Assembly (NCBI RefSeq): GCF_003259675.1
Contig: NZ_PZJG01000003.1
Coordinates: 1 to 64,000 of the forward strand
DNA from: Macrococcoides bohemicum
GTDB taxonomy: Bacteria > Bacillota > Bacilli > Staphylococcales > Staphylococcaceae
Length of the DNA stretch: 64,000 bases
Reading direction: 5' to 3'
Program-made: the position numbers and the translations under genes
Notes under the pieces: model-generated
Databases searched by the model: none
What the model was told of the DNA's origin: nothing
What the model saw: the letters and a program-made list of their open reading frames with translations, nothing else
Part shown: positions 7,499 to 29,602 of the stretch, one piece after another
Numbering within the stretch: the first letter of the stretch is position 1
Layout: every line of letters begins with the position of its first letter

Positions 7499-7545
7499 TA
7501 CAGAAGTTTGATTGAAAGTGAGGGTAGATAAAAACTGAATATACA

Positions 7546-7678
7546 GCGCCAGAACAGGAAACTGTTGACGAGGAAGATGGTTATCGAAAATTCGGCGGAT
7601 GCCATCACGGATAGTAGCTATTCGATAGTTGATGTAACAAACCACTTGGGCAACTGAGTGAACAAAAGACATCAGCAT
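7546..7678 (+). ncRNA. glmS self-cleaving ribozyme (GlcN6P riboswitch)
   Basis: The 5' leader of glmS holds the conserved glmS ribozyme core: AGCGCC at the cleavage site (cut expected between 7545 and 7546), then GTTGACGAGGA, GGTTATCGAAAATTCGGCGG and ATGCC. The outer helix GATGT (7631-7635)/ACATC (7669-7673) encloses the P4 hairpin CACTTGGG...GAGTG. In Firmicutes glucosamine-6-phosphate acts as cofactor, the mRNA cleaves itself and is then degraded, giving product feedback on glmS. Ends are estimated by comparison with the B. subtilis element from memory. Confidence 0.93.
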
Positions 7679-7747
7679 AGCACAAATAAACAATCTATTT
7701 AAATTAACTTATTTTAAATGCGCCAATGCGCTCAGGAGGAACTTATT

Positions 7748-9675: not shown

Positions 9676-10221
9676 ATGAAAAAACTAATGACTTGTTGTA
9701 TAGCTATGTTGTTACTGTTCACTTTAACAGTTGATGCAAATGCGGCATTAAAGAAACCTTCTGTTCCTAACTTAAAGAACAAGACGGTTGTTCAGGCGAT
9801 GAAAAAAGGGAATTATAAATTAAACGGTATTAAAATCGGTAACACGTACGGCTATGTGAAGCAAAAATGGGTGAAACCTTCTTTTAAAGTGACATCACTT
9901 TATCAACGTTATGATTTTGAATATCATTATTTTACAGAACGTGGTGATAATACGATTCTTTACTTTACAGGTAAACGTGGTGATAAACCGGAGCAATATC
10001 GTCTGCGTTCAATAAGTTTTGCAGGTATTCCGCAATACTTTACAGTAAGTGATATGAATAAATATTGGGGAGAAGGCGATCTTTATTATCCTCAGGCAGG
10101 TACGATTAATTACATTCAGGGTAATACATTATTATCATTTGATGTTAATGGGAGTATTGCTTATGTTGCACAATTACATCCTGAAGATATTAAAGAGATA
10201 CTAAGAAAATTTGCATTTTAA
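9676..10221 (+). CDS. Secreted protein of a local paralogous family (one repeat module)
   Basis: 181-residue protein with a Sec signal peptide (MKKLMTCCIAMLLLFTLTV, cleavage near DANA-A) and no lipobox at the cleavage site. The mature part carries one family module: MKKGNYKLNGIKIGNTYGYV, a beta-rich middle with YHYFTERGDNTILYF, and a second half with VSDMNKYWGEGD. The same pattern occurs at 19564, 22355, 22908 and in the remnant at 15929. The G-x-K-[IL]-x-x-T...V...LG.P core resembles BamE/SmpA-type (BLIP-like fold) modules, but this is inference and no function is known. ATG 9676 is chosen because GAGAGG precedes it and a TATAAT at 9646-9651 lies inside the longer reading. Confidence 0.72.
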   Translation: MKKLMTCCIAMLLLFTLTVDANAALKKPSVPNLKNKTVVQAMKKGNYKLNGIKIGNTYGYVKQKWVKPSFKVTSLYQRYDFEYHYFTERGDNTILYFTGKRGDKPEQYRLRSISFAGIPQYFTVSDMNKYWGEGDLYYPQAGTINYIQGNTLLSFDVNGSIAYVAQLHPEDIKEILRKFAF

Positions 10222-10240
10222 AATAAAAATTAAATATAGT

Positions 10241-10279
10241 AAATAACCACCAATAATAAGGTATTATTGGTGGTTATTT
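10241..10279. terminator. Bidirectional terminator
   Basis: Perfect 18-bp stem (AAATAACCACCAATAATA and its complement) with a 3-base loop, between the convergent genes ending at 10221 and 10318. Confidence 0.85.
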
Positions 10280-10317
10280 ACATGATTAAAGTTGATTAGT
10301 TGTTTTTCATTAGACAT

Positions 10318-10704
10318 TTATCGCTTGTTTTTTCCGTTTAATTGATTTATTCGTGTTCGTATTTCAAAAAATACCGATAAAATAAGCATGAATTGAACAA
10401 TCTTCGTTAAAATACCTAAGTCATAAATAAATATACCGATTAACACAATTAACCCGAATATAAATAGCAGAACTGCTGCTATAAGCTGTTGTTTAACCAT
10501 AGCAGTCGTCACAACTTTACCAGACTGCGTAAGCATTGCATTGTATAAATTAAATAGCATAAACAAACCAATTGACATTAAATAGAGCGCGTTGACGACT
10601 CTCTTCGAATCATTATGTGTAATCCCATCATATAAATTAAAAATTTGTGCCATAAAAAATAATAATGCAAAAAATCCAATTAAAATATTACCGAACTTCA
10701 TCAT
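10318..10704 (-). CDS. Small four-helix membrane protein, unknown function
   Basis: 128 residues with about four hydrophobic segments: ILIGFFALLFFMAQIFNLY, ALYLMSIGLFMLFNLYNAM, LIAAVLLFIFGLIVLIGIFI and TKIVQFMLILSVFF, then a basic tail (QLNGKNKR). Start ATG follows AAGGAGTAC. It converges on the secreted-repeat gene at 9676. A similar-sized four-helix gene (20633-21025) converges in the same way on another family member, so an association is possible. Not recognised. Confidence 0.65.
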   Translation of the reverse strand: MMKFGNILIGFFALLFFMAQIFNLYDGITHNDSKRVVNALYLMSIGLFMLFNLYNAMLTQSGKVVTTAMVKQQLIAAVLLFIFGLIVLIGIFIYDLGILTKIVQFMLILSVFFEIRTRINQLNGKNKR

Positions 10705-10824
10705 GTACTCCTTTTAAATGTATAAAATAATATAATATACAATTATCATACCATAAATGCGTTTTATCCAATCAATTTGAAGTTAGATTGATGTATTATG
10801 GATGATAAAAAGGAGGGATTTACG

Positions 10825-11931
10825 ATGAAAATTTTAATTGCACCTGATTCCTACAAAGAATGTTTAAGTGCAATGCGTGTGGCAGAATGCATAGCTAAGG
10901 GATTACAAGCATCAATACCTGATGCTGAAGTGATTCTTCGTCCGATGGCAGATGGTGGGGAAGGAACGGTTGATGCATTAATCTATGGATTGAATGGTAA
11001 GAAAGAAGAGATACATACTGTTGATATGTATAGCAGACCGTTGACGACATATTATGGCAAGCTTGATGACACAACTGCAGTGATTGAAGTGGCTAATATT
11101 ATCGGAATGGAAGTAACGCGAGCGCGTAATCCTTATCTTGCTTCAAGCTTTGGTGTTGGTGATGTCATACGTCAGTTAATTGAACGTGGATATAAGAAAG
11201 TATTTATCGGTTTAGGCGGTAGTTTAACGAATGATGGCGGTGCAGGTTTATTAGAGGCACTTGGATTACAATTTCTTGATAATAAAGGACGAATCCTTAC
11301 TATTAATGGTGGAAACTTATCTGAAATTAGATTGATAAAAGGCCACCTGATACCTGCGCTAAAAGAAATTGAACTTCATTTAATTTGTGATGTGACAAAC
11401 CCTTTAACCGGTGAGCATGGTGCAACATATACTTATGGTAAACAAAAGGGAATTGAAGAAGAAGAGATGAAAGCTTTTGATGAAAGTATTGCCTCATTTG
11501 CTGTTAAATTAGAACAGCATTTAAATGTACACTGTCATCATATAGAAGGTGCCGGTGCAGCTGGTGGTATAGGATATGGATTATTATGTGTTGGTGCTGT
11601 GATGCATAATGGTGCTGAATATATTGCAGATATTGTATTGAACGATCTTGATTTAAAGACATTCGATTATATCTTCACTGGTGAAGGGAAAAGTGACTTC
11701 CAGACACAGTACGGAAAGCTACCGGTTTGTGTTGCAAATAGAGGGAATGATGTGGGCGTGCAATCAATACTTGTGGCAGGGGGCTTAGGTACAAATTACG
11801 AAGCACTTTATGATCACTTCTTAAGTATCCACGCAATTACTGATGGACCGATGTCACTCGATGATGCGATGGATAATGCTGAAAGATTAATCAGTAACAC
11901 GTGCAGGAATATAGGAAGATTATTGAAATAA
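10825..11931 (+). CDS. glxK: Glycerate kinase
   Basis: Phosphorylates glycerate with ATP (GlxK/GarK family, glycerate 2-kinase type), feeding it into lower glycolysis. 368 residues with the family landmarks: N-terminal IAPDSYKECLSA, PMADGGEGTVDAL, the glycine-rich GLGGSLTNDGGAGLLEALG near residue 130, and the C-terminal TGEGKSDFQTQYGK near 290. ATG 10825 follows AGGAGGG; the in-frame ATG at 10798 has no ribosome site. Single-gene unit. Confidence 0.92.
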   Translation: MKILIAPDSYKECLSAMRVAECIAKGLQASIPDAEVILRPMADGGEGTVDALIYGLNGKKEEIHTVDMYSRPLTTYYGKLDDTTAVIEVANIIGMEVTRARNPYLASSFGVGDVIRQLIERGYKKVFIGLGGSLTNDGGAGLLEALGLQFLDNKGRILTINGGNLSEIRLIKGHLIPALKEIELHLICDVTNPLTGEHGATYTYGKQKGIEEEEMKAFDESIASFAVKLEQHLNVHCHHIEGAGAAGGIGYGLLCVGAVMHNGAEYIADIVLNDLDLKTFDYIFTGEGKSDFQTQYGKLPVCVANRGNDVGVQSILVAGGLGTNYEALYDHFLSIHAITDGPMSLDDAMDNAERLISNTCRNIGRLLK

Positions 11932-11942
11932 TTTTTTAAAAC

Positions 11943-11967
11943 AAAAAGAGCCAGCTAGGCTCTTTTT
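11943..11967. terminator. Bidirectional terminator
   Basis: 10-bp stem AAAAAGAGCC/GGCTCTTTTT with an AGCTA loop. The stop codon of the convergent CPBP gene (11955-11957) lies in the loop. Confidence 0.85.
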
Positions 11968-12857
11968 TGTGTACCGTATTTTTCAAGACTTAATTTAAGT
12001 AATAAAGTGATCACGAGAATTGAGATGACAGTGACAACAAGCCCACCTTCTAACCCGAAATGCCCACCATTAATAATAGACTGATCCATATTTGATTCAG
12101 TATTTAAGATGGTTGCTGGTAAAGCCTGCCCACTTACTTCATTACCTAAAAATACGCCAAGTGTAATATTCCAGAAGCTATGCGCAGCGCCTGTCAGCCA
12201 AATATTATCTGACCAGTAGAATAATAGTGAGAATACGATACCTGCCAGGAATAAATTAACAAAGCTAAGGATACTCGTATTCGGATTTAAGAAATGCAGA
12301 AATGAGAAGAATGCTGAATTGATGATTATACCAGCAGGCACACCGATTTGATAGCTGATTTTGTTCATCAAGAAACCTCTGGCAATCACTTCTTCAGTTA
12401 AACCTTGTATCATAAATAATCCAATCACCCATGTTAAAGTAAACCAAGGAATACTAGGGTTAACCGTGCTGTGCATTGCACCGAATAGTAGATTGATGAG
12501 GTAGACGATAATGATGATTGCCATCCCTAGAAGCAATCCAAATCCATATTTGGAAAATACTTTTTCTTGAAAGAAACCTAATGCCTGTACAGGATGACGA
12601 TAGGCAAATTTATTGATGATAAGACATGCAACGAGTAAGAAAGGAAAGATTAACAAACTGATGAGCGTACTCAACGGTTCTTCTTGTAATTCAGTAAGTG
12701 TTGCCGTTGGATTGAAAGCGAGAATAATTGGTACTAATATTAATCCAGCAATGATTTGAACGATAAAGAAAATCGCAAATGCAATAAGTAGTGTCGCATA
12801 CCATGGAATATTGCTCGGAGATTTTTTAGATAGCGATATACTTTGATTGAAATTCAT
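11955..12857 (-). CDS. CPBP-family intramembrane metalloprotease
   Basis: 300-residue polytopic membrane protein of the CPBP (Abi/CAAX protease, Rce1-like) family. Catalytic motifs are intact: EEVIARGF (Glu-Glu-x3-Arg) in the middle, FSFLHF (His) about 40 residues later, and the C-terminal AHSFWN (second His and Asn). About eight transmembrane segments. Family members cleave membrane substrates or give bacteriocin self-immunity; the substrate here is unknown. Start 12857 (MNFNQS) is chosen because GGAGGCGG precedes it; an upstream in-frame start has none. Its promoter faces the lipoprotein gene at 12968. Confidence 0.87.
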   Translation of the reverse strand: MNFNQSISLSKKSPSNIPWYATLLIAFAIFFIVQIIAGLILVPIILAFNPTATLTELQEEPLSTLISLLIFPFLLVACLIINKFAYRHPVQALGFFQEKVFSKYGFGLLLGMAIIIIVYLINLLFGAMHSTVNPSIPWFTLTWVIGLFMIQGLTEEVIARGFLMNKISYQIGVPAGIIINSAFFSFLHFLNPNTSILSFVNLFLAGIVFSLLFYWSDNIWLTGAAHSFWNITLGVFLGNEVSGQALPATILNTESNMDQSIINGGHFGLEGGLVVTVISILVITLLLKLSLEKYGTQKRA

Positions 12858-12967
12858 AAAGCCGCCTCCATATAATTTTACCACTAGTATAGCATAGAAA
12901 ATTTACCGTATATTGCGAATTTGTAGTATCATAGAATTTAGGTGGAATATAGAACGGAGATGAACAC

Positions 12968-13564
12968 ATGAACGTAAAAAAGATGAGTATTTTATTATCG
13001 GCAGCAATTATACTTGTAGCATGTGGTAAAGAAGATACTGCACCGAAAGAAAAAGTGAAAACTGAGCAAAAAGAAAGTGCTGCAGATATCGCCAGAAAGA
13101 AAATTAAAGCGAGTCGTGAAAAACATAAATCAAATAAAAATGATTCAAATACGAGTGAAATAGAAACAACTGAACCTGCAGCTACGACAGAAGAATTAAA
13201 TACAACTGAAGCGGTAACGACAGAAGAATTAAATACAACTGAAGCGGTAACGACAGAAGAATTAAATACAACTGAACCTGCAATGACAGAAGCTGTTGTC
13301 AAAGAGAATGTTAATAATATAACGAATATAAATACATTAAGCCAAATTATATATAGTAATGATTATACATATGATGAGAAAATGGCAGCATATCAAAGTG
13401 GTGTAGCCAACGGTCTGATTCCGCAAGGCACAAACACTTCATCACCAGCCGCTGCATTTGAAAGTGCGTTACAAGTAGAACGTACAGAAGCACAATCTAC
13501 GACAGAAGCTCCGGCAGCTTCACCGACAGTAGATCCGAATACAGGATTACCAGTGCAGCCTTAG
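12968..13564 (+). CDS. Lipoprotein with Thr/Glu tandem repeats
   Basis: 198 residues. Signal peptide with lipobox ILVAC predicts lipidation at Cys19. The charged region after it (KEDTAPKEKVKTEQK) leads to three 11-residue repeats of TTEELNTTEAV type (residues 73-105), then a module INTLSQIIYSNDYTYDEKMA and a low-complexity tail with TTEAPAASPTVDPNTGLP. It looks like a stalk-bearing surface lipoprotein. No enzymatic motif is visible. The partial lipoprotein at 63716 has the same layout and may be a paralogue. RBS GAACGGAGATG. Confidence 0.72.
   Translation: MNVKKMSILLSAAIILVACGKEDTAPKEKVKTEQKESAADIARKKIKASREKHKSNKNDSNTSEIETTEPAATTEELNTTEAVTTEELNTTEAVTTEELNTTEPAMTEAVVKENVNNITNINTLSQIIYSNDYTYDEKMAAYQSGVANGLIPQGTNTSSPAAAFESALQVERTEAQSTTEAPAASPTVDPNTGLPVQP
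13184..13282 (+). repeat. Three 33-bp tandem repeats inside the lipoprotein gene
   Basis: Unit starts ACGACAGAAGAATTAAAT. Copies at 13184-13216 and 13217-13249 are identical; the third (13250-13282) differs in its last two codons. The unit is a multiple of three, so copy-number change would keep the frame. Confidence 0.92.
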
Positions 13565-13641
13565 TGGAGTTTGTGATGAATGGGAAGTGTTGCTGAAGCG
13601 GCTGTAATCGGAAAATACAGCCGCATGCGCCATAAAAATAG

Positions 13642-13672
13642 AGAAACTGGCTTCTGAGCTGGTTTCTTTTTA
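13642..13672 (+). terminator. Terminator before the Z1 gene
   Basis: Stem AGAAACTGGC/GCTGGTTTCT with two wobble pairs and a T-run. Just upstream, 13599-13624 forms a perfect 9-bp hairpin (GCGGCTGTA/TACAGCCGC) without a T-run. Confidence 0.7.
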
Positions 13673-13694
13673 TTGTTAATTTTAGGAGAAGATT

Positions 13695-15848
13695 ATGGAT
13701 TTAAAACACGGTGTGTTTATTAATACACTTCAACATAAAAACAATTATTCAATAGATGAATTAAAAGTAATGCATGATACTATAAATAACTTAATAGAAA
13801 TATCTACAACAGAAAATAAGCCCGGTATGCTACTTGGTCGTATACAGTCTGGGAAGACACGTAGCTTTATGGGTTCGATGGCTTTAGGGTTTGATAATGG
13901 CTTTGAAGTAGTGATCATCTTAACAAAGAACTCTAACGCACTTGCACGACAAACGTATGAACGGCTGCACAAAGAATATGAAGCACTGATTGATCAGGAC
14001 TATATTTCAGCATATGACATTATGAGCCTTCCTGAAGATTTACGTAAGTTTGAACTAAATAAGAAAATTGTCATTGTCGTTAAGAAAGAAAAGAAGAATG
14101 TGGAACGATTAACGAAAGCTTTATTTGAAATGTATCCGGTACTCTCAAAGCGTCAGATGATGATTATCGATGATGAAGCAGATTATGCGTCAGTTGTTTA
14201 TGATAAAGATAAGGATAAGAACTTAACGGAACTCAAGGTCATTGCATCCCAACTCGATCAAATTAAAAGAGAAATTCCTACAGCAGCCTACTTACAAGTA
14301 ACTGCGACACCGTATTCACTATATTTACAGCCGGACAGTGAAGTGTTATCTGCACGTGGTTATCAACCGAAACGACCAGCTTTCACAGTGCTTGTGCCGA
14401 CGTATCAGTCGTATGTTGGTGGGAAGTTCTATTTCGAACAGTCTAAGCTTGAAGGTCCTGCAAGTCACGTCTATCAACCGGTAAGTGAAACCGAACTGGA
14501 GCTGTTACGTAAAGAAGATAACCGACGTGTAAAAGATGCATATGTACTTACTACTAAACAATTAAATGGGTTGCGCAATGCACTGATTAACTTTGTTGTC
14601 GGAGGCAAGATTCGTAACCTTCAACAAATAGCTCAACAGGAACGTCCTAAAAAGTATGCTTTTATTATGCATACCATTACGACAAAACGCGCGCATATGT
14701 GGCAATATCAGGTTGTGATGAAGATAGAACAGAAGCTCACACAACTGATCGAAGAAAACGAAGCTGCATTTAAATCAATTATTATGAAAGCATATGAAGG
14801 GTTTAAATTATCTTCAGAATCAAATTATTTTCCAGATGCAAGAGACGTTTATGAAGCGGTAAAATCAGCGTTTCTTGATGAAGAGTTGTTGATTACTATC
14901 GTTAATTCAGAACAAGATGTGAATCAATTGCTGGATAAACGGGGAGAACTGAAACTTCGAGCACCACTTAATTTCTTTATTGGGGGTCAAATTCTTGATC
15001 GTGGTATTACGATTGGCAACTTAATCGGTTTCTATTACGGACGAGATCCGAAGAAGTTTCAGCAAGATACGGTACTGCAGCATTCACGTATGTACGGGGC
15101 ACGACCGAAAGAAGATTTGTCTGTGACGAGATTTTATACTACAAATAGAATCTATGACGTAATGGAACGAATGCATACGTTTGATGAAGATTTAAGGAAA
15201 GCATTTGAAACTGGGCGTAATGGGGGAGAAGTTATCTTTATGATGCATGATACAAAGAAAGACATTGTACCATGTAACCCTAATAAGCTTCTGTTGTCGA
15301 AAGTCATTACGATTAAAGGAAAGAAACGTTTCTTACCAGTTGGATTTCAGACGAAAAGTCGCAGCGAGATGATGCGTCGCACAAAGAAGCTGGATACAAT
15401 GATTCAGGAATTATGTAAGTTTGCTATCGATCAAAATAACAAAGATGCACGTCATATACTCGTTCCTGTTCAGAAAGTAATTCCGATACTTAAAGAAATA
15501 ACAGAATGTCTCATCATGGAAGAAGGCTATGAGTGGAACGTTGAAACTTATAGCGCTATACTCAATTATTTATCAAGGCTACCAGGAAACAATACGGGAT
15601 ATGTCTGGATTGTTACACGTGAAAACCGAAATATATCACGCTTCCGTCAAGACGGTAAAAGATTTGCTGATCGACCAGATAACGGACAAGATGAACTTAA
15701 ACAAAGTTATCAGCTTGGTACGACACATCCAACTGTAATGCTGCTCAGACAAAACGGAAATGAGAATGAAGGATGGCGCGGTGGACCTTTCTACTGGCCG
15801 GTCATTGTCGCACCAACACAGATGAATACGATTGTATTTGAAGGATAA
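13695..15848 (+). CDS. Z1-domain superfamily II ATPase/helicase-like protein
   Basis: 717 residues. N-terminal P-loop GRIQSGKTRS (residues 48-57), Walker B IIDDEADYAS (157-166), SAT-like motif VTATPYS (202-208), and a second half typical of the Z1 domain: GGQILDRGITIGN then QHSRMYGAR with an arginine-finger-like R. Z1 proteins are usually found in restriction-like conflict systems together with a GHKL ATPase and a PD-(D/E)XK nuclease (Iyer, Abhiman and Aravind 2008). Here it is a single gene with its own RBS (TTTAGGAGAA). The nearest GHKL gene is 10 kb away. Role in DNA processing or phage defence is inference. Confidence 0.85.
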   Translation: MDLKHGVFINTLQHKNNYSIDELKVMHDTINNLIEISTTENKPGMLLGRIQSGKTRSFMGSMALGFDNGFEVVIILTKNSNALARQTYERLHKEYEALIDQDYISAYDIMSLPEDLRKFELNKKIVIVVKKEKKNVERLTKALFEMYPVLSKRQMMIIDDEADYASVVYDKDKDKNLTELKVIASQLDQIKREIPTAAYLQVTATPYSLYLQPDSEVLSARGYQPKRPAFTVLVPTYQSYVGGKFYFEQSKLEGPASHVYQPVSETELELLRKEDNRRVKDAYVLTTKQLNGLRNALINFVVGGKIRNLQQIAQQERPKKYAFIMHTITTKRAHMWQYQVVMKIEQKLTQLIEENEAAFKSIIMKAYEGFKLSSESNYFPDARDVYEAVKSAFLDEELLITIVNSEQDVNQLLDKRGELKLRAPLNFFIGGQILDRGITIGNLIGFYYGRDPKKFQQDTVLQHSRMYGARPKEDLSVTRFYTTNRIYDVMERMHTFDEDLRKAFETGRNGGEVIFMMHDTKKDIVPCNPNKLLLSKVITIKGKKRFLPVGFQTKSRSEMMRRTKKLDTMIQELCKFAIDQNNKDARHILVPVQKVIPILKEITECLIMEEGYEWNVETYSAILNYLSRLPGNNTGYVWIVTRENRNISRFRQDGKRFADRPDNGQDELKQSYQLGTTHPTVMLLRQNGNENEGWRGGPFYWPVIVAPTQMNTIVFEG

Positions 15849-15928
15849 TAATATATTAAAGGATAAACAATAATTATGTATTTTTAATATTAACTAAATA
15901 AAATAATACTTTTATTTTTTCTACCTTT

Positions 15929-16144
15929 ATGGTCGATTATGATTTTGCGAAACAATCATTAACTGATATTGAAAAAGTAGTCGGTAAACCAGATCGTTCT
16001 GAAAAGGGCAGCTATGTTGAAGAAGAGAACGGTGTGAAGGGTAAAAGAATTCCTACAGTAATGAATGAATATGGTCACTTAGTATTAAACGCTGAAAAGA
16101 TTAATGGTAAGTGGGATGTTGTAGATATTCAGTATGTGAGATAA
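15929..16144 (+). pseudogene. 3' remnant of a secreted repeat-family gene
   Basis: About 71 codons that align with the C-terminus of the protein encoded at 22908: VDYD...LTDIEKVVGKPD here against FDYD...FSKIESLVGKAD there, NEYGHLVLNAEKINGKWDVV against NTYGHLIAKGEYYKGAWRVT, and DIQYVR against EVQYKYIK. It has no ribosome site, no signal peptide and lacks the first half of the module, so I read it as a decayed gene end lying between the Z1 gene and the MMPL transporter. Confidence 0.72.
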
Positions 16145-16146
16145 CG

Positions 16147-16186
16147 AATAAGGACCACATGAAAATTGATTCATGTGGTCCTTATT
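16147..16186. terminator. Bidirectional terminator
   Basis: Perfect 16-bp stem (AATAAGGACCACATGA and its complement), 8-base loop, T-rich on both sides. Serves the remnant and the convergent transporter gene. Confidence 0.88.
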
Positions 16187-16187
16187 T

Positions 16188-18599
16188 TTAATTATTCATA
16201 TATTTTTCAATCAGAGTATTTAAATCTTTTATATTATTACTCTGTTGTTTTAATAAAGCTAATAATTCAGATTGACTCAATTTATCGACTTCTATTTCTT
16301 TAGTAGTCGCTTTATTTGTGTGGACGGTTGCTTCGAGTTGCGTTTCATTTATTGAATGTTTATTTGTGTCTTTAATATCTGCTGTCATTGCTTTTTGAGA
16401 TGGTGTATAAATTGTAGACACATTGCTTGTAGTTTGCTGCATTTCAACTTCGTCATGCATTAAATTATGTCCTTCTATATCTACAACAGGAAGGATACGA
16501 TCTAACCATTTTGGTAGATACCATGATGCTTTACCAAATAATAAAGTTAGCGCTGGAACTATCATCAATCTCACGATAAAAGCATCAAACAGCACACCGA
16601 ATGCTAAAGCAATTCCCATCGACTTAATCATGACATCATCCTGGAATACGAAACTGATGAAGACGCTGAACATAATTAGTGCAGCAGCAACAATTACTGG
16701 GCCACTTTCTTTTATTCCTACTTTTAACGAATGTAAATTATTTTTAGTTTTCGAATATTCTTCGTGTACACGCGACATTAAGAATACTTCATAATCCATA
16801 GCTAATCCGAATAATAATCCAATCGTGATAACTGGTAAGAAAGCTAGTAATGGCCCATTTGCATCTATACCAAATAATTCACTCATGACACCTTGCTGCA
16901 TTACTAATGTAGTAAAACCAAGTGTAGCTAAAAGTGATAATAAAAATCCGGTAACTGCAATTAATGGGATTAATAATGATCTAAACACAATCATAAGTAA
17001 TACGAAAGCTAAACATATAATAACACCTGCAAATAAAGGGATTGCATCATTTAGTTTCTTAGACATATCAATGTTAATGACAGTCAGGCCAGATATTTCT
17101 GTTTGATAATCAAATTTGTCTTTTGCATCTTTATTATAATCACGTAAATCTTTTGCAAGCTCATTCGTTGATTTTGCATTCGGTCCTTTTTCAGGTACAA
17201 TAGTAATCAATGCGTAGTTATTATCTTTCGTCATCTGTGGTGGAGATACAACATCCACATGATCCATATTATTAATATCATTTATAACTTGCTTAACATT
17301 ACTTTGAAGTGCTTTAGGATCGTCTTTATCAGCAGTAGTTTTTATTAACATTGGAATAACCCCGTTATAACCTTCACCGAATTCATCTGAAATGATCTGA
17401 TAAGCTTTTCTTTGTGTACTATCTTCAGACTTCATTCCATCATCAGGTATACCTAGACGCATATCATTTACAGGAATAATTAATCCACCTAGAAAAACTA
17501 AGCCTAAGAGTGCTGCAATCCATGGTTTGCCTAAAACAAATTTTGACCAGAAATTATCATAATTTTTCTCTTTAGTAACAATTGCTTTTGGTTCTATTTG
17601 CTTATGAAATACACTGATTAGCGTTGGTACTAAAGTTAAAGAAGTTAATACTGCAAATAAAACACTTAATGCAGAAGCAAGCCCCATTACTGATAAAAAC
17701 TTAATACCTACAAGCGATAGACCACATACAGCGATCATGACTGTAATACCTGCGAAGACGACAGCACCGCCAGCAGTTCCTAATGCAAGTCCGATAGCTT
17801 TGACATGATCTCTTTCATGTTTCTTGATTTCACGATAGCGATATAAAATAAATAATGCATAATCGATACCAAGAGCGAGACCAATCATTACAGCTAGCGT
17901 CATAGTGATATTGGGAATTTCAAAGATATGCGTGAGTAAACCGATAATCCCAACACTTGAAATTAAACCGATGAGAGCACTAATAATTGGCATACCTGCA
18001 GCGATTAGAGAAGCGAAAGTAATCATTAATATAATAAATGCAACACTAATGCCAATGACTTCACTCGTTACACCCAATTCATCTATTGCATTCATCCCAC
18101 TACCTGTTAATTCAATCTGTAAGGTAGTATCTTCTTTTAATTCCTTTACTTCGTCTTTAACTTTATCGATAGACTTCTTATTTAAATTAATTGGTTCAGT
18201 ATCAAAGGTGACATCTGCATATGTGGCAGATTGATCTTTGTTAATAAGTTTCATTTCATAAGGATTAGAAACTTTATCGACATGTTTATCATTTTTTTTA
18301 ATATCTTCCAACATCTTTGTAACCGCAGTTACATTATTTTTGTTTGTAATTTCACCATCTTCATTTGATTTTAAGACAATACGTATCGTTGCTTTACTAC
18401 CATCTATACCGTACTTATCTTCAATCTTTTCATTCGTATCAAGTGATTTGATACCATCCATCTTAATCTCGTTAGAGAAAGTTGGCGGATCTATAGCGAT
18501 AGGTGTAAGAATAGATGCGATGATGAGCACCCAGATAAATACACCTGCTAATTTATGCGTTGCCATAAAACGCCCTAGTTTGTTTAAGAAATTTGCCAC
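16188..18599 (-). CDS. farE: MMPL-family RND exporter, FarE-like
   Basis: 803-residue inner-membrane exporter. Two halves of RND/MmpL type, each one transmembrane helix, a large outer loop and five more helices (YdfJ-like), with ALGIDYALFILYRYREI and GLAMDYEVFLMSRVHEEY carrying the acidic/tyrosine signature of proton-coupled MMPL proteins. The last ~110 residues are a polar cytoplasmic tail (KATTKEIEVDKLSQSELLAL). Start is GTG at 18599 behind AGGAGGT. The divergent TetR-type gene matches the S. aureus farE/farR arrangement, where FarE exports antimicrobial fatty acids; the symbol rests on this context and recall. Confidence 0.75.
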   Translation of the reverse strand: MANFLNKLGRFMATHKLAGVFIWVLIIASILTPIAIDPPTFSNEIKMDGIKSLDTNEKIEDKYGIDGSKATIRIVLKSNEDGEITNKNNVTAVTKMLEDIKKNDKHVDKVSNPYEMKLINKDQSATYADVTFDTEPINLNKKSIDKVKDEVKELKEDTTLQIELTGSGMNAIDELGVTSEVIGISVAFIILMITFASLIAAGMPIISALIGLISSVGIIGLLTHIFEIPNITMTLAVMIGLALGIDYALFILYRYREIKKHERDHVKAIGLALGTAGGAVVFAGITVMIAVCGLSLVGIKFLSVMGLASALSVLFAVLTSLTLVPTLISVFHKQIEPKAIVTKEKNYDNFWSKFVLGKPWIAALLGLVFLGGLIIPVNDMRLGIPDDGMKSEDSTQRKAYQIISDEFGEGYNGVIPMLIKTTADKDDPKALQSNVKQVINDINNMDHVDVVSPPQMTKDNNYALITIVPEKGPNAKSTNELAKDLRDYNKDAKDKFDYQTEISGLTVINIDMSKKLNDAIPLFAGVIICLAFVLLMIVFRSLLIPLIAVTGFLLSLLATLGFTTLVMQQGVMSELFGIDANGPLLAFLPVITIGLLFGLAMDYEVFLMSRVHEEYSKTKNNLHSLKVGIKESGPVIVAAALIMFSVFISFVFQDDVMIKSMGIALAFGVLFDAFIVRLMIVPALTLLFGKASWYLPKWLDRILPVVDIEGHNLMHDEVEMQQTTSNVSTIYTPSQKAMTADIKDTNKHSINETQLEATVHTNKATTKEIEVDKLSQSELLALLKQQSNNIKDLNTLIEKYMNN

Positions 18600-18621
18600 A
18601 ATTTGACCTCCTATTTAATCT

Positions 18622-18644
18622 ACAATATAGTTTAAATATATTGT
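18622..18644. promoter_or_regulatory. Candidate operator before the MMPL gene
   Basis: Perfect inverted repeat ACAATATA-N7-TATATTGT, 23 bp upstream of the GTG start. Its left part lies in TAATCTACAATATAG, nearly the same as TAATCTACAGAATAG at 18717-18731 before the regulator, suggesting one protein binds both. Confidence 0.45.
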
Positions 18645-18706
18645 GTTGTTTGTGTGAATTATAATACTAAGGATTACGATATAGGAAAAGAGATAAAAAA
18701 TTTGTA

Positions 18707-18725
18707 CTGTATAGATAATCTACAG
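18707..18725. promoter_or_regulatory. Candidate TetR-type operator before the regulator
   Basis: Inverted repeat CTGTA-N9-TACAG ending 16 bp before the regulator start and overlapping the likely promoter/RBS region. Suits autoregulation by the TetR-family protein. Confidence 0.4.
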
Positions 18726-18741
18726 AATAGGAGAATTGTAT

Positions 18742-19296
18742 ATGAATGAGAATGATTTGAGAGTGAGAAGAACGAAAAAAATGTTGATTGATGCGTTAGG
18801 TAATCTTTTAGAAAAACATACCTATACCTCAATATCAGTCAATATGATATGTGATACAGCTATGGTACATCGAACAACATTCTATAAACACTTTTATGAT
18901 AAATACGATTTGCTAAGCCAGTGGGTGCATCAAATAGCTGGAGAATATGAGAAAATTCCTTTTGAGCGAAGAGTGAAATCACCCTTTCAATCCCTAAGTT
19001 TAGTGTTCTTGAAGAAATTTGAAGAAATCGATCGAAAGCAGGAAGAGGACCAACAATTTAGAGAGATAGTTATTAATGATTTCGTAAAGCTGTTTAAAGA
19101 AGACTTAGAAAAGAACATCGATAAAATTGAATACGAACAATCTATACCTGAAAGTCTTGTATTCTTTATGTTCAGTTCCAGTATACTATCAATTATTGTA
19201 TGGGTGAAGCACGAATCAATTGATTTACAACCTGAAGAATTGGACGCATTGTTTTTAAAGATTAACCAAATTAAATTAAAAGATTTAAAGTCATAA
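18742..19296 (+). CDS. farR: TetR-family regulator, FarR-like
   Basis: 184 residues. N-terminal TetR helix-turn-helix with the family signature: LEKHTYTSISVNMICDTA then VHRTTFYKHFYDKYDLL (residues 24-64); the rest is a helical ligand-binding half without clear motif. ATG 18742 is used (AGGAG 8 bases upstream); an in-frame TTG at 18736 is too close. Divergent from the MMPL exporter, as FarR is from FarE in S. aureus, so it probably represses or switches that gene in response to the exported compound. From 19297 to 19563 there is no gene, only two weak hairpins. Confidence 0.75.
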   Translation: MNENDLRVRRTKKMLIDALGNLLEKHTYTSISVNMICDTAMVHRTTFYKHFYDKYDLLSQWVHQIAGEYEKIPFERRVKSPFQSLSLVFLKKFEEIDRKQEEDQQFREIVINDFVKLFKEDLEKNIDKIEYEQSIPESLVFFMFSSSILSIIVWVKHESIDLQPEELDALFLKINQIKLKDLKS

Positions 19297-19563
19297 AAGA
19301 GAACCTATAATAAATATATTAACTTACCACAATTATAGGGCTGATTAATTGTGTTGCTAAACCATACTAATATATTAACGCTTAAAGCAAAGTATGGTTG
19401 ATAGAAGAGATAAAACAGAAAAACATGATGAATTCAATATATCATTCAAATCTAAGAAAAGTGTCAAACAGTAGTATTTGAAGGATAAATATTAATAAAT
19501 TTATCTTGTAAATGATATACAATTAATATACATTTAAGTAAATAAATTTATGAGGAAACCACC

Positions 19564-20616
19564 ATGAAGAAACTAATAGCAGGGGTATTGATTGCATCAT
19601 CATTAATATACGCACCACAAGTAGATGCGAAATCTAAATCACTTTGTAGCATACCAGGTAAGACGTACGACGCGATATCTATCCATAATGACAAAGATTT
19701 AAAAGCAATCAATGCTGGGAAGTACACATTTAAAGGTGTTAAAATTGGTAACACGATGAAATATGTAAAATCGAAGTTAGGTAAACCAGAATCATTCATA
19801 GTCACGAAAGATAAAACAGGAATTACCGGTTACTTAATGTACGGAGATTATACGTTAACATTCTATAGTCCGAAACGATTTGTAAGTGATGATACGTTAA
19901 GGTTAAGTGCGATATCTATTTTACTTGAAGAAGAAAAGCGTATACTGAAGCGAGACATTGAGTCAGTCGTTGGACCAGCTAAACAATCGAACGTTGAAAT
20001 AGAAGGTGAAAAGATTGATATATTCAATTATTTAGGTGTACAATACTCACCAATTTCTAAAGGAAAGATAGCAATAATGGCGCATATGATGAAACCTTCA
20101 TTATATCAATCAGATTCAGTTGTAAGTAAAGATAACTTAGTAGGAAATAAACTTAAAAATTTGAAACCAAAGAAACTTACGGTAGCAGAACTTAAAGTAT
20201 TAAATAATGGTAAGTTTAATTACAAAGGATTAAAGTTTGGTGCATCACCTGCTACAATTAAGAAAGCAGCTGGCAATTCTAATTCAGATGAGTATACGAA
20301 TGAAGAAGATACACATACTTTAACGCAGAGTTATGGTTATAAAGACTGGATTGAACTAGATTATACGGCAGATAAATGCGACGGAAAGTATATCTCGGAT
20401 TACTTAACATTCGATTATAGTAAGCTGAAAGTTACAGAGAAAGAAATGCGTGCAGCATTAGGTAAACCGTCAGACAGCTATAAAGATAGTTATGAAGATG
20501 ATGAAAAGCCAGGAAAAATGATTTATATGAAGACACTGGAATATAAGCACCTTGACGTTAACTTAGAGAAAGTTGGTAAGACGTATTACGTAGATTACAT
20601 CGATGTGTTTAGATAA
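19564..20616 (+). CDS. Secreted protein, two repeat modules (local paralogous family)
   Basis: 350 residues with a signal peptide (MKKLIAGVLIASSLIYAPQV, cleavage near VDA-K) and two family modules. Module 1: INAGKYTFKGVKIGNTMKYV, KSKLGKPESF, then DIESVVGPAK. Module 2 (from about residue 205): LNNGKFNYKGLKFGASPATI then EMRAALGKPSDSY and YYVDYIDVF. The repeated GK[YF]x[FY]KGxKxG...LGKP core links it to the genes at 9676, 22355 and 22908. Probably exported and free or wall-bound; no anchor motif. RBS GAGGAAACC. Function unknown. Confidence 0.72.
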   Translation: MKKLIAGVLIASSLIYAPQVDAKSKSLCSIPGKTYDAISIHNDKDLKAINAGKYTFKGVKIGNTMKYVKSKLGKPESFIVTKDKTGITGYLMYGDYTLTFYSPKRFVSDDTLRLSAISILLEEEKRILKRDIESVVGPAKQSNVEIEGEKIDIFNYLGVQYSPISKGKIAIMAHMMKPSLYQSDSVVSKDNLVGNKLKNLKPKKLTVAELKVLNNGKFNYKGLKFGASPATIKKAAGNSNSDEYTNEEDTHTLTQSYGYKDWIELDYTADKCDGKYISDYLTFDYSKLKVTEKEMRAALGKPSDSYKDSYEDDEKPGKMIYMKTLEYKHLDVNLEKVGKTYYVDYIDVFR

Positions 20617-20623
20617 TAAGAAG

Positions 20624-20650
20624 CACCGTGAATTATTTTTCACGGTGTTT
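20624..20650. terminator. Bidirectional terminator
   Basis: Stem CACCGTGAA/TTCACGGTG, 6-base loop, T-run. The stop codon of the convergent gene (20633-20635) lies in the loop. Confidence 0.82.
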
Positions 20651-21025
20651 TCTTTTGTCCGTCATAGTTAGCATGTATAGAGTAAATGTTATAAATAAAA
20701 TACTAATAATAAGAAACGCAATATAAAGTATACGACCAAATGTAGACGTTGCAATCATAATGCCAACCATACTTAAAATACCGACAAATAAATAACTGAA
20801 CATCATTAAACAATCGCTAATCAGTATAACCTTGCGCGTAGATCCGTTGTAGAATAGTTCTACTAAATCTTTAACAATAATAGCAAATAAATTCAGTGCA
20901 ATGAGGATGTAGATGAGATAATCCTCAAGCGGCGCATCAGCAGTATAATGTTTAAAAATATTCACTGATAGAAACGTAATAACAAAAATATTAATATAAA
21001 ATAGCAGTTTACTATTCTTAGTCAT
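20633..21025 (-). CDS. Small four-helix membrane protein, unknown function
   Basis: 130 residues, about four hydrophobic segments (LLFYINIFVITFLSVNIF, YLIYILIALNLFAIIVKDL, MFSYLFVGILSMVGIMIA, YIAFLIISILFITFTLYM) and a basic C-terminus (TDKRKHREK). RBS AAAGGAC. Same size, topology and position (convergent to a secreted-repeat gene) as the gene at 10318, though sequence similarity by eye is weak. Not recognised. Confidence 0.62.
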   Translation of the reverse strand: MTKNSKLLFYINIFVITFLSVNIFKHYTADAPLEDYLIYILIALNLFAIIVKDLVELFYNGSTRKVILISDCLMMFSYLFVGILSMVGIMIATSTFGRILYIAFLIISILFITFTLYMLTMTDKRKHREK

Positions 21026-21159
21026 TAATAAAGTCCTTTCTATTTTAAACCTTTATATTTCATTATAGATTTTAAATACAGTATACAGCAAACAAGGATT
21101 GGAGAATAGGTAAAGGGGAATAAAGAAAGATAATATTTGAAGGCATTGGAGTGAGCGGA

Positions 21160-21795
21160 ATGAAACTAACCATTCAGGAGTTATATGATAAACTGTATGA
21201 TAATCTCGGACCACAAGGCTGGTGGCCAGCTGATAATCCATTTGAGATTATTGTTGGTGCGATTCTTGTGCAGAATACAAATTGGCGCAATGTAGAGCGT
21301 TCTTTACATAACTTGCGAGAGAAGACGAAGTTTGATCCAGATAAAATATTGGCATTAAATATGGAAACGTTACAATCTTGTATTCAACCAAGTGGATTCT
21401 ATAAGAATAAATCAAAAGCAGTGCATAGTATCTTTCAGTGGCTAAAAGAACATGACTATGACTTTAAAGCGATTGATGCAATGTATGTGGAAAGACTGCG
21501 CAGTGAACTACTTGCCTTACCAGGTATCGGACCGGAAACCGCTGACGTGTTACTCGTCTATGTGTTTGACAAGGTCGTGTTTATTCCGGATACGTATACA
21601 CGTCGATTATTTAAATTATTAGGTCACGCTGGAAGTGATAGTTATAAAGCATTGCAGGAAGCTGTAAAATTGCCAGCAGACTTTACACCAGAACATGCGC
21701 AGGAATTTCACGGCTTGCTTGATGAATTTGGAAAACTTTATTTATCACCTAAAGGCTTGAAGAGTGAGACGTTTCTGGATGAGTATTTTTGTTAA
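21160..21795 (+). CDS. HhH-GPD DNA glycosylase, MagIII/COG2231-like
   Basis: 211-residue base-excision repair glycosylase related to endonuclease III. The helix-hairpin-helix reads LLALPGIGPETADVLLVYV (near residue 120) and the catalytic aspartate lies in FIPDTYTRRLF. Where bifunctional endonuclease III has the lyase lysine (GVGRKTAN), this has Glu, and the C-terminal four-cysteine iron-sulphur loop is missing (a single Cys is the last residue). Both traits point to a monofunctional glycosylase like Helicobacter MagIII, probably acting on alkylated bases. ATG 21160 is preceded by GGAGTG. Confidence 0.82.
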   Translation: MKLTIQELYDKLYDNLGPQGWWPADNPFEIIVGAILVQNTNWRNVERSLHNLREKTKFDPDKILALNMETLQSCIQPSGFYKNKSKAVHSIFQWLKEHDYDFKAIDAMYVERLRSELLALPGIGPETADVLLVYVFDKVVFIPDTYTRRLFKLLGHAGSDSYKALQEAVKLPADFTPEHAQEFHGLLDEFGKLYLSPKGLKSETFLDEYFC

Positions 21796-21818
21796 ATTAA
21801 TATACGGAGGAAAATATT

Positions 21819-22325
21819 ATGATAATCAACCCAACAGTAAAGGCGATGCCGTTATTTAGCGCAATACCAAAGGTTAAAGACATTGAAGCATCAAAAGCAT
21901 ACTGCAATGAAAACCCAATTTATTCATGGCACGCAAATTATTATACGGTGAATCGTAAGAAGATATTGTTTCTTGTAAATGATTTAACATTACTTACAAT
22001 TGTAATTCAGGATGTGAATGCTGAAAGCAAGAAATATCTGGATCATTTAATTCGTGATAGCATCTTTAAAATACTTATGAGTTGTGGCATAGCGCCAGAC
22101 AAAATAGAACGATATATGGATAATGCGAATGAAATACTTATAGGTAAAGGACATAAGAGAAATATAACGAGTATTGTCACTCAGAATATAATGATGGCTG
22201 AAACATTTGAATACCACGACTTATTATGGGCAGAACTTATGGACTTTTGTAATAACATGATATTTAGTACAACGAATTATGTGAAACCGATTGATAAGAC
22301 GATAGAAGTGTTTGAGGAGTTATAG
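21819..22325 (+). CDS. Conserved hypothetical protein, DUF6933-like
   Basis: 168-residue soluble protein. The stretch WHANYYTVNRKKILFLVND followed by LTLLTIVIQDV recalls the DUF6933 family as I remember it; no catalytic motif is visible. RBS GGAGGAAAA; 23 bp after the glycosylase gene and 29 bp before the signal-less repeat protein at 22355, all on one strand, so these three may be co-transcribed. Function unknown. Confidence 0.6.
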   Translation: MIINPTVKAMPLFSAIPKVKDIEASKAYCNENPIYSWHANYYTVNRKKILFLVNDLTLLTIVIQDVNAESKKYLDHLIRDSIFKILMSCGIAPDKIERYMDNANEILIGKGHKRNITSIVTQNIMMAETFEYHDLLWAELMDFCNNMIFSTTNYVKPIDKTIEVFEEL

Positions 22326-22354
22326 AAAAAAATAAATTTAAAGAGGTGTTTCCC

Positions 22355-22843
22355 GTGATAACGATGCCGGATATTTTAGACAAAAAGATAATTAAACGAT
22401 TAAAGAAAGGGAAATTTCATTATAAAGGTGCGAAGCTTACGATGACGTATAAACAGATCAAGGACAGATTAGGTGATGCACTGAATGATAAGCCAAGCTC
22501 TGATTACCCCGGAAATAAAATGTATACAGCAAAAGATTATCCTGAAGAAATTACCTTCGGGTTTGCCGGAAAACCTAAATGGAAGAAGAATCAATTAAAG
22601 TTAATCACGATTGATTATAATCATTTAGAGCGATTTTATGATTTGAAAGCGAAAGATATTAGAAAAGTCTGGGGAAATCCTGATAAGAAAAAGAAAAATT
22701 CTTTCGATTGGGATGATGAAGGTATATTCGATACGTACACATATCGTTATGGACATACATGGTTATGGTTTGATAAAGAAAAGAATCTTTTTGCGATGAC
22801 ATACTTAAATAGAAAGCTACAGAAGAAGTGGGGGGAGATATAA
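22355..22843 (+). CDS. Signal-less member of the secreted repeat family
   Basis: 162 residues, a single family module: LKKGKFHYKGAKLTMTYKQI, KDRLGDAL, IRKVWGNPDKKK and WLWFDKEKNLFAMTYL. Unlike its relatives it has no signal peptide; the N-terminus is ITMPDILDKKIIKR. GTG 22355 is taken as start because AAGAGGTG lies 4-8 bases upstream. It may be cytosolic, or a gene that lost its leader. The next family member starts 65 bp downstream behind its own promoter. Confidence 0.65.
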   Translation: MITMPDILDKKIIKRLKKGKFHYKGAKLTMTYKQIKDRLGDALNDKPSSDYPGNKMYTAKDYPEEITFGFAGKPKWKKNQLKLITIDYNHLERFYDLKAKDIRKVWGNPDKKKKNSFDWDDEGIFDTYTYRYGHTWLWFDKEKNLFAMTYLNRKLQKKWGEI

Positions 22844-22850
22844 GATATTT

Positions 22851-22896
22851 GTATTTATTTACAAAAATAATGCTATAATTGTAAATAAATACAAGG
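22851..22896. promoter_or_regulatory. Long perfect palindrome around the promoter of the 22908 gene
   Basis: Two perfect 14-bp arms, TTGTATTTATTTAC (22851-22864) and GTAAATAAATACAA (22883-22896), 32 bp apart start to start, flank a TATAAT at 22876-22881. The right arm touches the AGGAGG ribosome site. It could be a repressor operator or an RNA hairpin hiding the start. Confidence 0.6.
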
Positions 22897-22907
22897 AGGT
22901 TGTTGGG

Positions 22908-23975
22908 ATGAAGAAAGCGTTATTATCAGCACTATTGTTAGCAGGTCTTGTGGGTCAGGTCAATATCGCAGATGCACAGGGAGAAGTTAAGCCATGTTAC
23001 ACAGCGAGTAAAGTACAGGTTAAAGCACCAAATATGTTAGACAGTAAGACGATTAATGCAATAAAGTCAGGTCAATACAGCTTTGGTAGTATTAAATTAG
23101 ATATGACTTATTCAGCAGTGAAGAAAGCTTTAGGTAAACCAAAGATGGAAATGATACAGCAGGACCAATTTGGGAAGATGGTTACTTTAAAATACAATCA
23201 TTTGACACTTTCTTTATTCTCTAACGACCGCTATGCGAAGCCAGATACAATAAAAGTGATCGGCATCACTTATGATTTCCCGAAATATAATAGATTTGAT
23301 ATAAAACTATTACAATCAAAGTATGGCAAACCTGAAGATATTACAACGGGTGCAAATGATAAGGATGTTAATTACAATAACTACAACTTAAAATATAAAA
23401 AGTCCGGTAAATCATGGTTACTCAGTTCTATGGATCTAATGACAAAGCATGAGCCTGTGATTGACGAAACAACTATGGCTAAGAATCATAAAAAGACAAA
23501 AATAGCCCATACTGGCGAGTACACAATTACCAATTCAGATATTAAGAATATGGCTAAAGGAACGTTTGCATTAAAAGGTGCAAAGTTGAATATGACAGCC
23601 ACTGCTGCAACGAAAGCAATAGGACAGGCACTTGAAGATCGAACGATTATGACGCCAAATGGAACAGATGTATTTCAGGAATATGCGTTCGGCTCAGTGC
23701 ATGTAAGATATCAATCTAAAGATTGTGCCTCATCACCAGTGCTTAAACAAATGATATTTGATTATGATAAACGTGGTCTAACATTTAGTAAGATTGAAAG
23801 CTTAGTTGGAAAAGCAGATCAAACTGTGGATGGTAAAGTGGATACTACGTACGTTGGCAATAAAGAAATTAAAGTGAAAACAAGAACAAACACTTACGGC
23901 CATTTAATTGCAAAAGGTGAGTATTATAAAGGTGCGTGGCGTGTGACGGAAGTGCAGTATAAATATATAAAATAG
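22908..23975 (+). CDS. Secreted protein, two repeat modules (local paralogous family)
   Basis: 355 residues, signal peptide MKKALLSALLLAGLVGQVNI with cleavage near ADA-QG, then two modules. Module 1: IKSGQYSFGSIKLDMTYSAV, KKALGKPKME, LLQSKYGKPED. Module 2 (from about residue 207): MAKGTFALKGAKLNMTATAA, then FSKIESLVGKAD and a C-terminus WRVTEVQYKYIK that the remnant at 15929 matches. Strong RBS AAGGAGG. The promoter sits in a 46-bp palindrome, so expression is probably switched. No enzyme motif; function unknown. Confidence 0.74.
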   Translation: MKKALLSALLLAGLVGQVNIADAQGEVKPCYTASKVQVKAPNMLDSKTINAIKSGQYSFGSIKLDMTYSAVKKALGKPKMEMIQQDQFGKMVTLKYNHLTLSLFSNDRYAKPDTIKVIGITYDFPKYNRFDIKLLQSKYGKPEDITTGANDKDVNYNNYNLKYKKSGKSWLLSSMDLMTKHEPVIDETTMAKNHKKTKIAHTGEYTITNSDIKNMAKGTFALKGAKLNMTATAATKAIGQALEDRTIMTPNGTDVFQEYAFGSVHVRYQSKDCASSPVLKQMIFDYDKRGLTFSKIESLVGKADQTVDGKVDTTYVGNKEIKVKTRTNTYGHLIAKGEYYKGAWRVTEVQYKYIK

Positions 23976-25840: not shown

Positions 25841-25855
25841 AGTTATTATACTCCT

Positions 25856-25873
25856 TTGTTATGTATATAACAA
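25856..25873. promoter_or_regulatory. Candidate operator between divergent defence units
   Basis: Inverted repeat TTGTTAT-GTAT-ATAACAA just upstream of the DUF262 gene's ribosome site. No candidate regulator is encoded in the island. Confidence 0.4.
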
Positions 25874-26040
25874 AATTACCATAGTAAGTAATTATGATCA
25901 ATTTAATAATACATTGTGTAATGATAAATAGTTATTAATAAAAAAGTATAAATATATATAATTATATTGATCTTTTCCAATTTTATAATTAAATTATTTA
26001 TATACGTATAGATTATTTTATTTAAAAAAAGGGTGATAAT

Positions 26041-29520: not shown

Positions 29521-29531
29521 GTAATAATAAA

Positions 29532-29580
29532 AAGACTGAGAAGATGTTTATAATTAACTAAATAACTCTTCTCAGTTTTA
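29532..29580. terminator. Bidirectional terminator inside the defence island
   Basis: Stem AAGACTGAGAAG/CTTCTCAGTTTT with a long loop, between the convergent GHKL operon and the DUF2075 gene. Confidence 0.7.
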
Positions 29581-29602
29581 CTGTTATTTTTAAAATAAAA
29601 AT

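Follow-up and report, generated by a model that had tools for sequence, protein, structure and literature searches.

The window analysed here, a stretch of 64,000 nucleotides of Macrococcoides bohemicum DNA, carries four genes (P1 to P4) and one gene remnant (P5) which are homologous as judged from their sequences, and P1 to P4 probably belong to a family of the Macrococcus lineage that both expands and shrinks and whose members are non-enzymatic, mostly exported binding proteins acting at the cell surface. The kind of protein is known and the member is new; the interesting part is the bridge that the family forms to IsaB and SA0570. More tentatively, we propose that IsaB, SA0570, CAP_assoc_N, YjgB and the Macrococcus family may all derive from one secreted BLIP-like module, SA0570 being the staphylococcal counterpart of the family and all of them being matrix binders of DNA or other polymers in the wall zone.

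All five features are open reading frames (ORFs) of the forward strand at the positions given by an earlier note on this DNA. P1 (9676-10221), downstream of glmS, codes for a predicted exported protein with a single module (9772-10191). P2 (19564-20616), which follows a TetR-like gene, and P4 (22908-23975) code for predicted exported proteins with two modules (19681-20079 and 20179-20613 in P2, 23034-23444 and 23526-23969 in P4). P3 (22355-22843, starting at GTG 22355 or ATG 22364) ends 64 bases upstream of P4 and codes for a leaderless protein with one module (22373-22819), and P5 (15918-16145, ORF 15929-16144) is the 3' remnant of a two-module gene. Inspection by eye revealed a signal peptide of the MKK-hydrophobic-AxA type, with no lipobox seen, at the start of P1, P2 and P4 and none in P3; the earlier note was thus right about three signal peptides and one protein without, and also about the presence of one module (P1, P3) or two (P2, P4) per protein.

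When P4 was used as a query against the window's own genome, it retrieved P2 (4.8e-17), P5 (3.7e-7), P3 (8.3e-6), P1 (6.4e-4) and a sixth member, Q (7.2e-7), and no other place at E≤10. Q lies on another contig (C23; positions 1408-2331 of L004, L-numbers denoting the compared genomic loci), is leaderless and has about 145 N-terminal residues without a recognised Pfam domain, followed by one family module. In all-against-all phmmer searches P1, P2, P3, P4 and Q were linked in every pairing, and P5, which is the last part of a module only, was linked to P2, P3 and P4 and not significantly to P1 (0.45) or Q (0.18); these E-values are local, since the database consisted of eight proteins. Against a family profile that includes it, P1 gave 1.2e-33, and the modules of P1, P2 and P3 each matched the iterated family profile, which also includes them, at 1e-29 to 1e-42. 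The shared family of four genes and a remnant that the earlier note had described as local is therefore borne out, but the family is not only local, Q being elsewhere in the genome and relatives being found in other genera. Leaderless relatives of the P3 clade were found in L034, L035, L074, L076 and L078; in L079, a 147-residue frame (9017-9457) with a weak module match (7.9e-4) lies near two family genes.

The shared core motif on which this family had been proposed, G-K-x-[FY]-x-[FY]-K-G-x-K-[IL]-x-x-T, does not hold as written: it matched none of the 173 ORFs of the window because it is one position too long. The corrected form GK[FY]x[FY]KGxK was found in three modules (both of P2 and that of P3; 0.0 per shuffle), and a looser form of the core in five (both of P2, that of P3 and both of P4; 0.02 per shuffle). 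P1 fits neither and is joined to the others by profile and phmmer only.

The two-part build of the module was also confirmed. Aligned with hhalign, half 1 matched half 2 at a probability of 93.8% and a score of 31.5 (compare with a mean of 6.7 and a maximum of 9.2 for 30 column-shuffled controls), so that each module consists of two related halves. An alignment of 40 modules (11 genomes) shows conservation mainly of Gly, Tyr, Lys and Pro, in columns that read G-T-[YF], G-V-K-x-G-x-T, an isolated G, Y-G, G-K-P and once more Y-G, and no residue set of a catalytic type is conserved; because these columns suggest no catalysis, a binding role is the natural reading. When 61 modules were placed on a tree, the second modules made up a starred set of 17 rows (15 second modules and two second-module fragments) and the first modules were scattered over several places; the first module of L034:12212 is labelled single there, since the second one of that protein duplicates another and was removed. 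This suggests an old origin of the two-module form, which would not have arisen anew in each gene.

We then turn to the fold. The AlphaFold model of P4, built from 13 sequences, has a mean predicted local distance difference test (pLDDT) score of 84.2 and a predicted template modelling score of 0.80. In module A two helices are followed by four strands, another helix and four more strands; module B has the same order but ends in five strands. The best match given by VIA-align 2 was B. subtilis YjgB (DUF4309; 4ygt; Z 7.3, 3.4 Å over 123 residues), followed by the CAP proteins 4h0a (SAV1118; Z 6.9) and 4ifa (Z 6.5), the following row being at 5.5; Foldseek assigned 4ygt a probability of 1.00. 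Sliding clamps were considered as the P4 fold and rejected (template modelling score about 0.1, root-mean-square deviation about 19 in Foldseek), and a sequence search of the PDB with P4 and profiles A1, A2 and A3 gave nothing usable. No BLIP chain is among the matches listed for P4 by VIA-align 2, which excludes nothing. Because the best matches are YjgB and CAP proteins with a CAP_assoc_N-type domain, and because relatives pass the BamE and DUF4309 cut-offs (see below), the earlier guess of a BamE/SmpA or BLIP-like fold appears largely right, with P4 as the protein modelled. The same note had taken unlinked profiles or differing folds as contrary to its proposal; profile searches do link the genes, and the fold side is covered by the P4 model alone.

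Eight of the 13 two-module proteins of alignment A2 have exactly two Cys residues, the first shortly behind the signal peptide and the second within module B, and the other five have none; the corresponding codons are at 19645-19647 and 20377-20379 in P2 and at 22995-22997 and 23724-23726 in P4. A predicted disulfide may thus tie the stretch after the signal peptide to module B in these eight members, the predicted bonds being C28-C272 in P2 and C30-C273 in P4. The geometry of the P4 model is no test of this bond because the residues near the first Cys have a low pLDDT (below 50 for residues 1-26, 48 on average for block 21-30), and no probability was put on the Cys pattern, the 13 rows being related by descent.

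None of P1 to P5 passed a Pfam or NCBIfam cut-off, so the statement that no described family could be recognised stands for the family itself; it does not stand for its neighbourhood, which is described and comprises DUF4309, CAP_assoc_N, IsaB, SA0570 and the BLIP-like superfamily. P2 fell 1.2 bits short of DUF4309 (PF14172; 23.8 bits, 4.3e-5, for a cut-off of 25), and the other four window proteins gave no match. Among 20 relatives scanned with Pfam, L076, of the P3 clade, passed DUF4309 (27.1 of 25 bits), L085 passed BamE (PF04355; 25.3 of 23.2 bits), which no window protein does, L089 passed Excalibur, and the other 17 passed nothing; in L089 (3124-3861) a family module is followed by a C-terminal Excalibur calcium-binding domain, and L090 (2680-3405) has nearly the same sequence. 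The relative L034:13667 came near DUF3862 (22.6 of 25 bits, 1.1e-4), to which 3d4e, a 'putative beta-lactamase inhibitor' from S. mutans, belongs. With SA0570_fam (NF047391, cut-off 125 bits), P1 scored 22.3 bits (9.7e-5, over the first 90 positions) and P2 12.3 bits; with IsaB (NF047686, cut-off 45 bits), P1 scored 14.4 and P3 12.4 bits, and P2, P4 and P5 gave no match.

Profiles were also compared with each other. The 61-module alignment matched CAP_assoc_N (PF14504) at a probability of 95.8%, SA0570 at 93.6% and IsaB at 93.0% (91.5% for IsaB when other alignments were used), compared with at most 0.7% for 15 shuffled controls, five per family, and for the CAP domain proper. The families compared directly with each other gave 15% for IsaB and SA0570, 1.6% for IsaB and CAP_assoc_N and 0.7% for SA0570 and CAP_assoc_N; since they are not linked directly, it is the Macrococcus family that acts as the bridge. 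Because the sets for IsaB and SA0570 were drawn from NCBIfam searches, they do not depend on the module profile. The CAP set came mostly from loci found by the module profile, with the domain confirmed by Pfam in one, and the CAP row of the window's genome, L091, was restored to it; left out of the comparison were CAP proteins of the iterated search, module matches above E 1e-10, exact duplicates and L060, L121 and L128, which have no open frame of 140 residues. Searched in the genomes, the 40-module profile retrieved all three kinds of protein at E below 1e-4, with best E-values of 6.8e-7 for CAP, 2.6e-6 for SA0570 and 7.5e-6 for IsaB2, at places that overlap those of earlier searches. E. coli BamE matched half 1 at 49.6% (score 22.2; 30 shuffles of BamE did not exceed 13.9).

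A search of the PDB by sequence found no solved relative of IsaB. We also modelled an IsaB protein of the window's genome (16 sequences, pLDDT 77). The best VIA-align match of this model was again 4ygt (Z 7.4 over 115 residues), ahead of the next row at 5.1; 4h0a reached Z 4.7 and 3d4e Z 4.1. We give weight to this match because the P4 model picks the same protein and the sequence links agree.

The distribution of these proteins was surveyed in 108 Staphylococcaceae genomes (9, 6, 8, 1 and 84 from genera g1 to g5, g5 being, we infer, Staphylococcus). At E≤1e-10 the family is present in 6/9 genomes of g1, 5/6 of g2 and the single one of g4, and in none of the 92 of g3 and g5, where the weaker matches are, as far as they could be placed, CAP and SA0570 proteins. 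SA0570 passed its cut-off in 92 of the 108 genomes, and the two are complementary: in g1, g2 and g4 the family occurs in 12/16 and SA0570 in 0/16, whereas in g3 and g5 the counts are 0/92 and 92/92. IsaB passed its cut-off in 103/108. Of 398 genomes drawn from the class, nine had a match at E≤1e-6, and six of these nine are Staphylococcaceae. The flanks of SA0570 (1.5 kb at 29 loci) gave no BLAST match (E≤1e-8) to the family loci and no common neighbours, and, as to an origin from mobile elements, P4 had no match in plasmids and P3 none in phages.

The family thus resembles several known systems without coinciding with any of them. YjgB covers one module (123 of the 355 P4 residues), whereas the family has one or two and a predicted disulfide; CAP_assoc_N precedes a CAP domain, whereas the family modules stand alone or in pairs. 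IsaB is exported and similar in size and layout, but has one module and a conserved Y-D-Q motif of its own; SA0570 also has a single module. BamE is an outer-membrane lipoprotein of the BAM complex, whereas the relatives described here are from Gram-positive Macrococcus. The BLIP-like superfamily shares the two-part arrangement of helix and antiparallel strands, a helix plus four-strand domain repeated in tandem (four and four strands, then four and five, in the P4 model), but 3d4e, a match of the IsaB model, was the one such link among the structures listed. In PMC2954215 the members of this superfamily are given as BLIP, SmpA_OmlA/BamE, DUF2874, PepSY and DUF3192, and are called bacterial periplasmic proteins, BLIP being secreted by Streptomyces.

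What could such modules bind? According to PMC2670837, IsaB is a secreted protein associated with the wall that binds both DNA and RNA irrespective of their sequence, and in the S. lugdunensis biofilm matrix an SA0570-family and an IsaB-family protein were both highly abundant (PMC12648618). We suggest that P1, P2 and P4 would be exported through their signal peptides and would remain at the cell wall or close to it, each module binding a macromolecular partner through its sheet. The likeliest partners would be either extracellular polyanions, for which DNA binding by IsaB is the model, or proteins, whether of the wall or other partners, for which BLIP-like proteins are the model; the leaderless P3 type might play a comparable part in the cytosol. 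As a relative that binds nucleic acids, IsaB is as good a precedent as protein binding. IsaB-like binding of nucleic acid is the leading, unproven version, and we lean towards a wall-zone polymer binder with protein targets as its main rival. The fusion of the Excalibur domain to the L089 relative is consistent with this role.

Several observations weigh against the proposed role and kinship. P3 and Q have no signal peptide, deletion of IsaB did not reduce biofilm in the experiments described in PMC2670837, and the Discussion of PMC12648618 names the SA0570-family protein a Clp protease. Basic charge was dropped as a sign of DNA binding, the median isoelectric point of the family being 9.49 (n=26) compared with 9.13 (n=24; p 0.30) for the controls, which were 24 of 39 other signal-peptide-like proteins at these loci (those with less than 40% hydrophobic residues), three of the 24 being IsaB by position. 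As for kinship, Foldseek ranks 4ygt 36th by E-value for P4 (2.2e-3), the lowest E-values belonging mainly to sliding clamps; for the IsaB model none of its matches reached E≤0.001, and the 50 listed do not include 4ygt. The IsaB model has no helix in its first half, Z scores of 6.5-7.4 are middling by VIA-align's own note, and the alignment of IsaB with the module spans about 100 columns at 10-16% identity. E. coli BamE shows no link to half 2 alone (0.25%), and the CAP_assoc_N link is partly selected, since the CAP proteins were partly found by the family's own profile.

The history of the locus was followed by comparison with L034, of genome G006. Positions 10805-15922 of the window are collinear with L034 7136-12187, and 15918-16145 with L034 14490-14717. 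L034 has two intact two-module genes (12212-13282 and 13643-14713), and the window keeps the end of the second only, P5 being 97% identical in DNA to the 3' end of L034:13643-14713. Since the window is collinear with L034 on both sides of the join, where five bases are shared (overlap at 15918-15922), P5 is what remained after a deletion of 2.3 kb, which corresponds to L034 12188-14489. Insertion of the Z1-domain gene into P5's gene was considered and rejected, as relatives have the Z1 gene in a collinear position and a deletion accounts for P5. The adjacent block (16146-21144), which contains an MMPL-type transporter (by eye), the TetR-like regulator, P2 and a small membrane protein, was not matched by blastn (E≤1e-8) in any of the seven loci used for comparison; its flanks match L034 at 97% and 92%, and L034 has a different stretch of 1 kb in its place. 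P2 is 41% identical to L034:12212, the surrounding genes being 84-97% identical, and P4 is in two frames in what is probably M. goetzii (genome G007). The ratios of nonsynonymous to synonymous substitution rates (dN/dS) were 0.06-0.07 for P1, 0.22-0.26 for P3 and 0.16-0.20 for P4, and by this measure the three genes are under purifying selection.

These data bear on other explanations. The paralogues could be strict secreted inhibitors of the BLIP type, each blocking one enzyme (a protease, beta-lactamase or wall hydrolase), with copy number reflecting an arms race. The gain and loss of genes at the locus, the links of relatives to BamE and DUF3862, the match of the IsaB model to 3d4e and the inhibitory theme proposed for the BLIP-like superfamily in PMC2954215 would all agree with this. 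However, dN/dS well under 1 in the three genes tested gives no sign of rapid adaptive change, and no enzyme gene was seen kept beside the family across genera when neighbours were compared with the window genes; we therefore think strict inhibitors unlikely. A second possibility is a part in envelope assembly or wall anchoring without a free ligand role, like the N-terminal domain of CAP proteins. CAP_assoc_N is the strongest profile link and the structural matches of P4 in second and third place are CAP proteins, but Pfam found no CAP domain in the five window proteins or in the 20 relatives scanned, and we consider this explanation improbable.

The likeness to IsaB and SA0570 might also be convergence on a simple helix-plus-sheet layout and not descent, as the very low identity, the poor direct comparisons between the families and the lack of a significant Foldseek match for the IsaB model would allow. 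The family profile nevertheless links each family separately when the controls do not, the links recur in genome searches and that to YjgB recurs in a separately built IsaB model, which makes convergence decidedly improbable. Finally, an immunity or anti-competitor function, in which BamE-like modules neutralise the toxins of rivals and the leaderless ones guard the cytosol, would fit the rapidly evolving BamE-like immunity proteins described in PMC12419801, a locus that borders a defence-like island and the DUF6933 gene adjoining P3, but is very unlikely given the purifying selection, a P3 without any PADLOC match, the absence of DUF6933 among seven scanned neighbours of the P3 relatives in L074, L076 and L078, and the absence of a polymorphic-toxin-like gene among scanned neighbours, for which no systematic search was made.

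The surroundings of the family genes can be summarised as follows. The TetR-like gene before P2 scores 23.7 of 24 bits with TetR_N, and the small membrane protein (20633-21025) is convergent with P2, a relative of 41-43% identity being also near a P2-type gene in L034, L035 and L037. The DUF6933 gene (21819-22325) directly precedes P3 and gives a match of partial length to the defence candidate PDC-S63 (5.9e-13). The defence-like island (24167-31540) adjoins P4 and includes a GmrSD protein matching HEC-06 (7.6e-181), a PDC-M33A/B-like pair at 26041 and 27939, a gene at 28765 with a weak likeness to DUF6339, under the cut-off, and a PDC-S41-like gene at 29603. The Z1-domain protein (13695-15848) matches Helicase_II (9.7e-58) and MzaC (3.2e-17) in PADLOC; its gene is kept at the same place in relatives and is in two frames in L034 (9948-10625 and 10629-12107). 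Further upstream are a glmS ribozyme (7534-7685), before glmS, and, at 1-840, the end of 23S rRNA, 5S rRNA and six tRNAs.

No prior proposal linking this family to IsaB, SA0570, YjgB and CAP_assoc_N was found among the matches listed from a collection of 5.39 million papers. IsaB and SA0570 are widespread staphylococcal secreted proteins, and it is the Macrococcus family that makes their kinship visible. The paralogues, which differ naturally in module number (one or two), in export and in the presence of the Cys pair, are well suited to binding tests, and the bridge offers a fold to model and a place to look for the binding face. If the common origin proposed here is true, IsaB would gain its first fold and a place in a superfamily.

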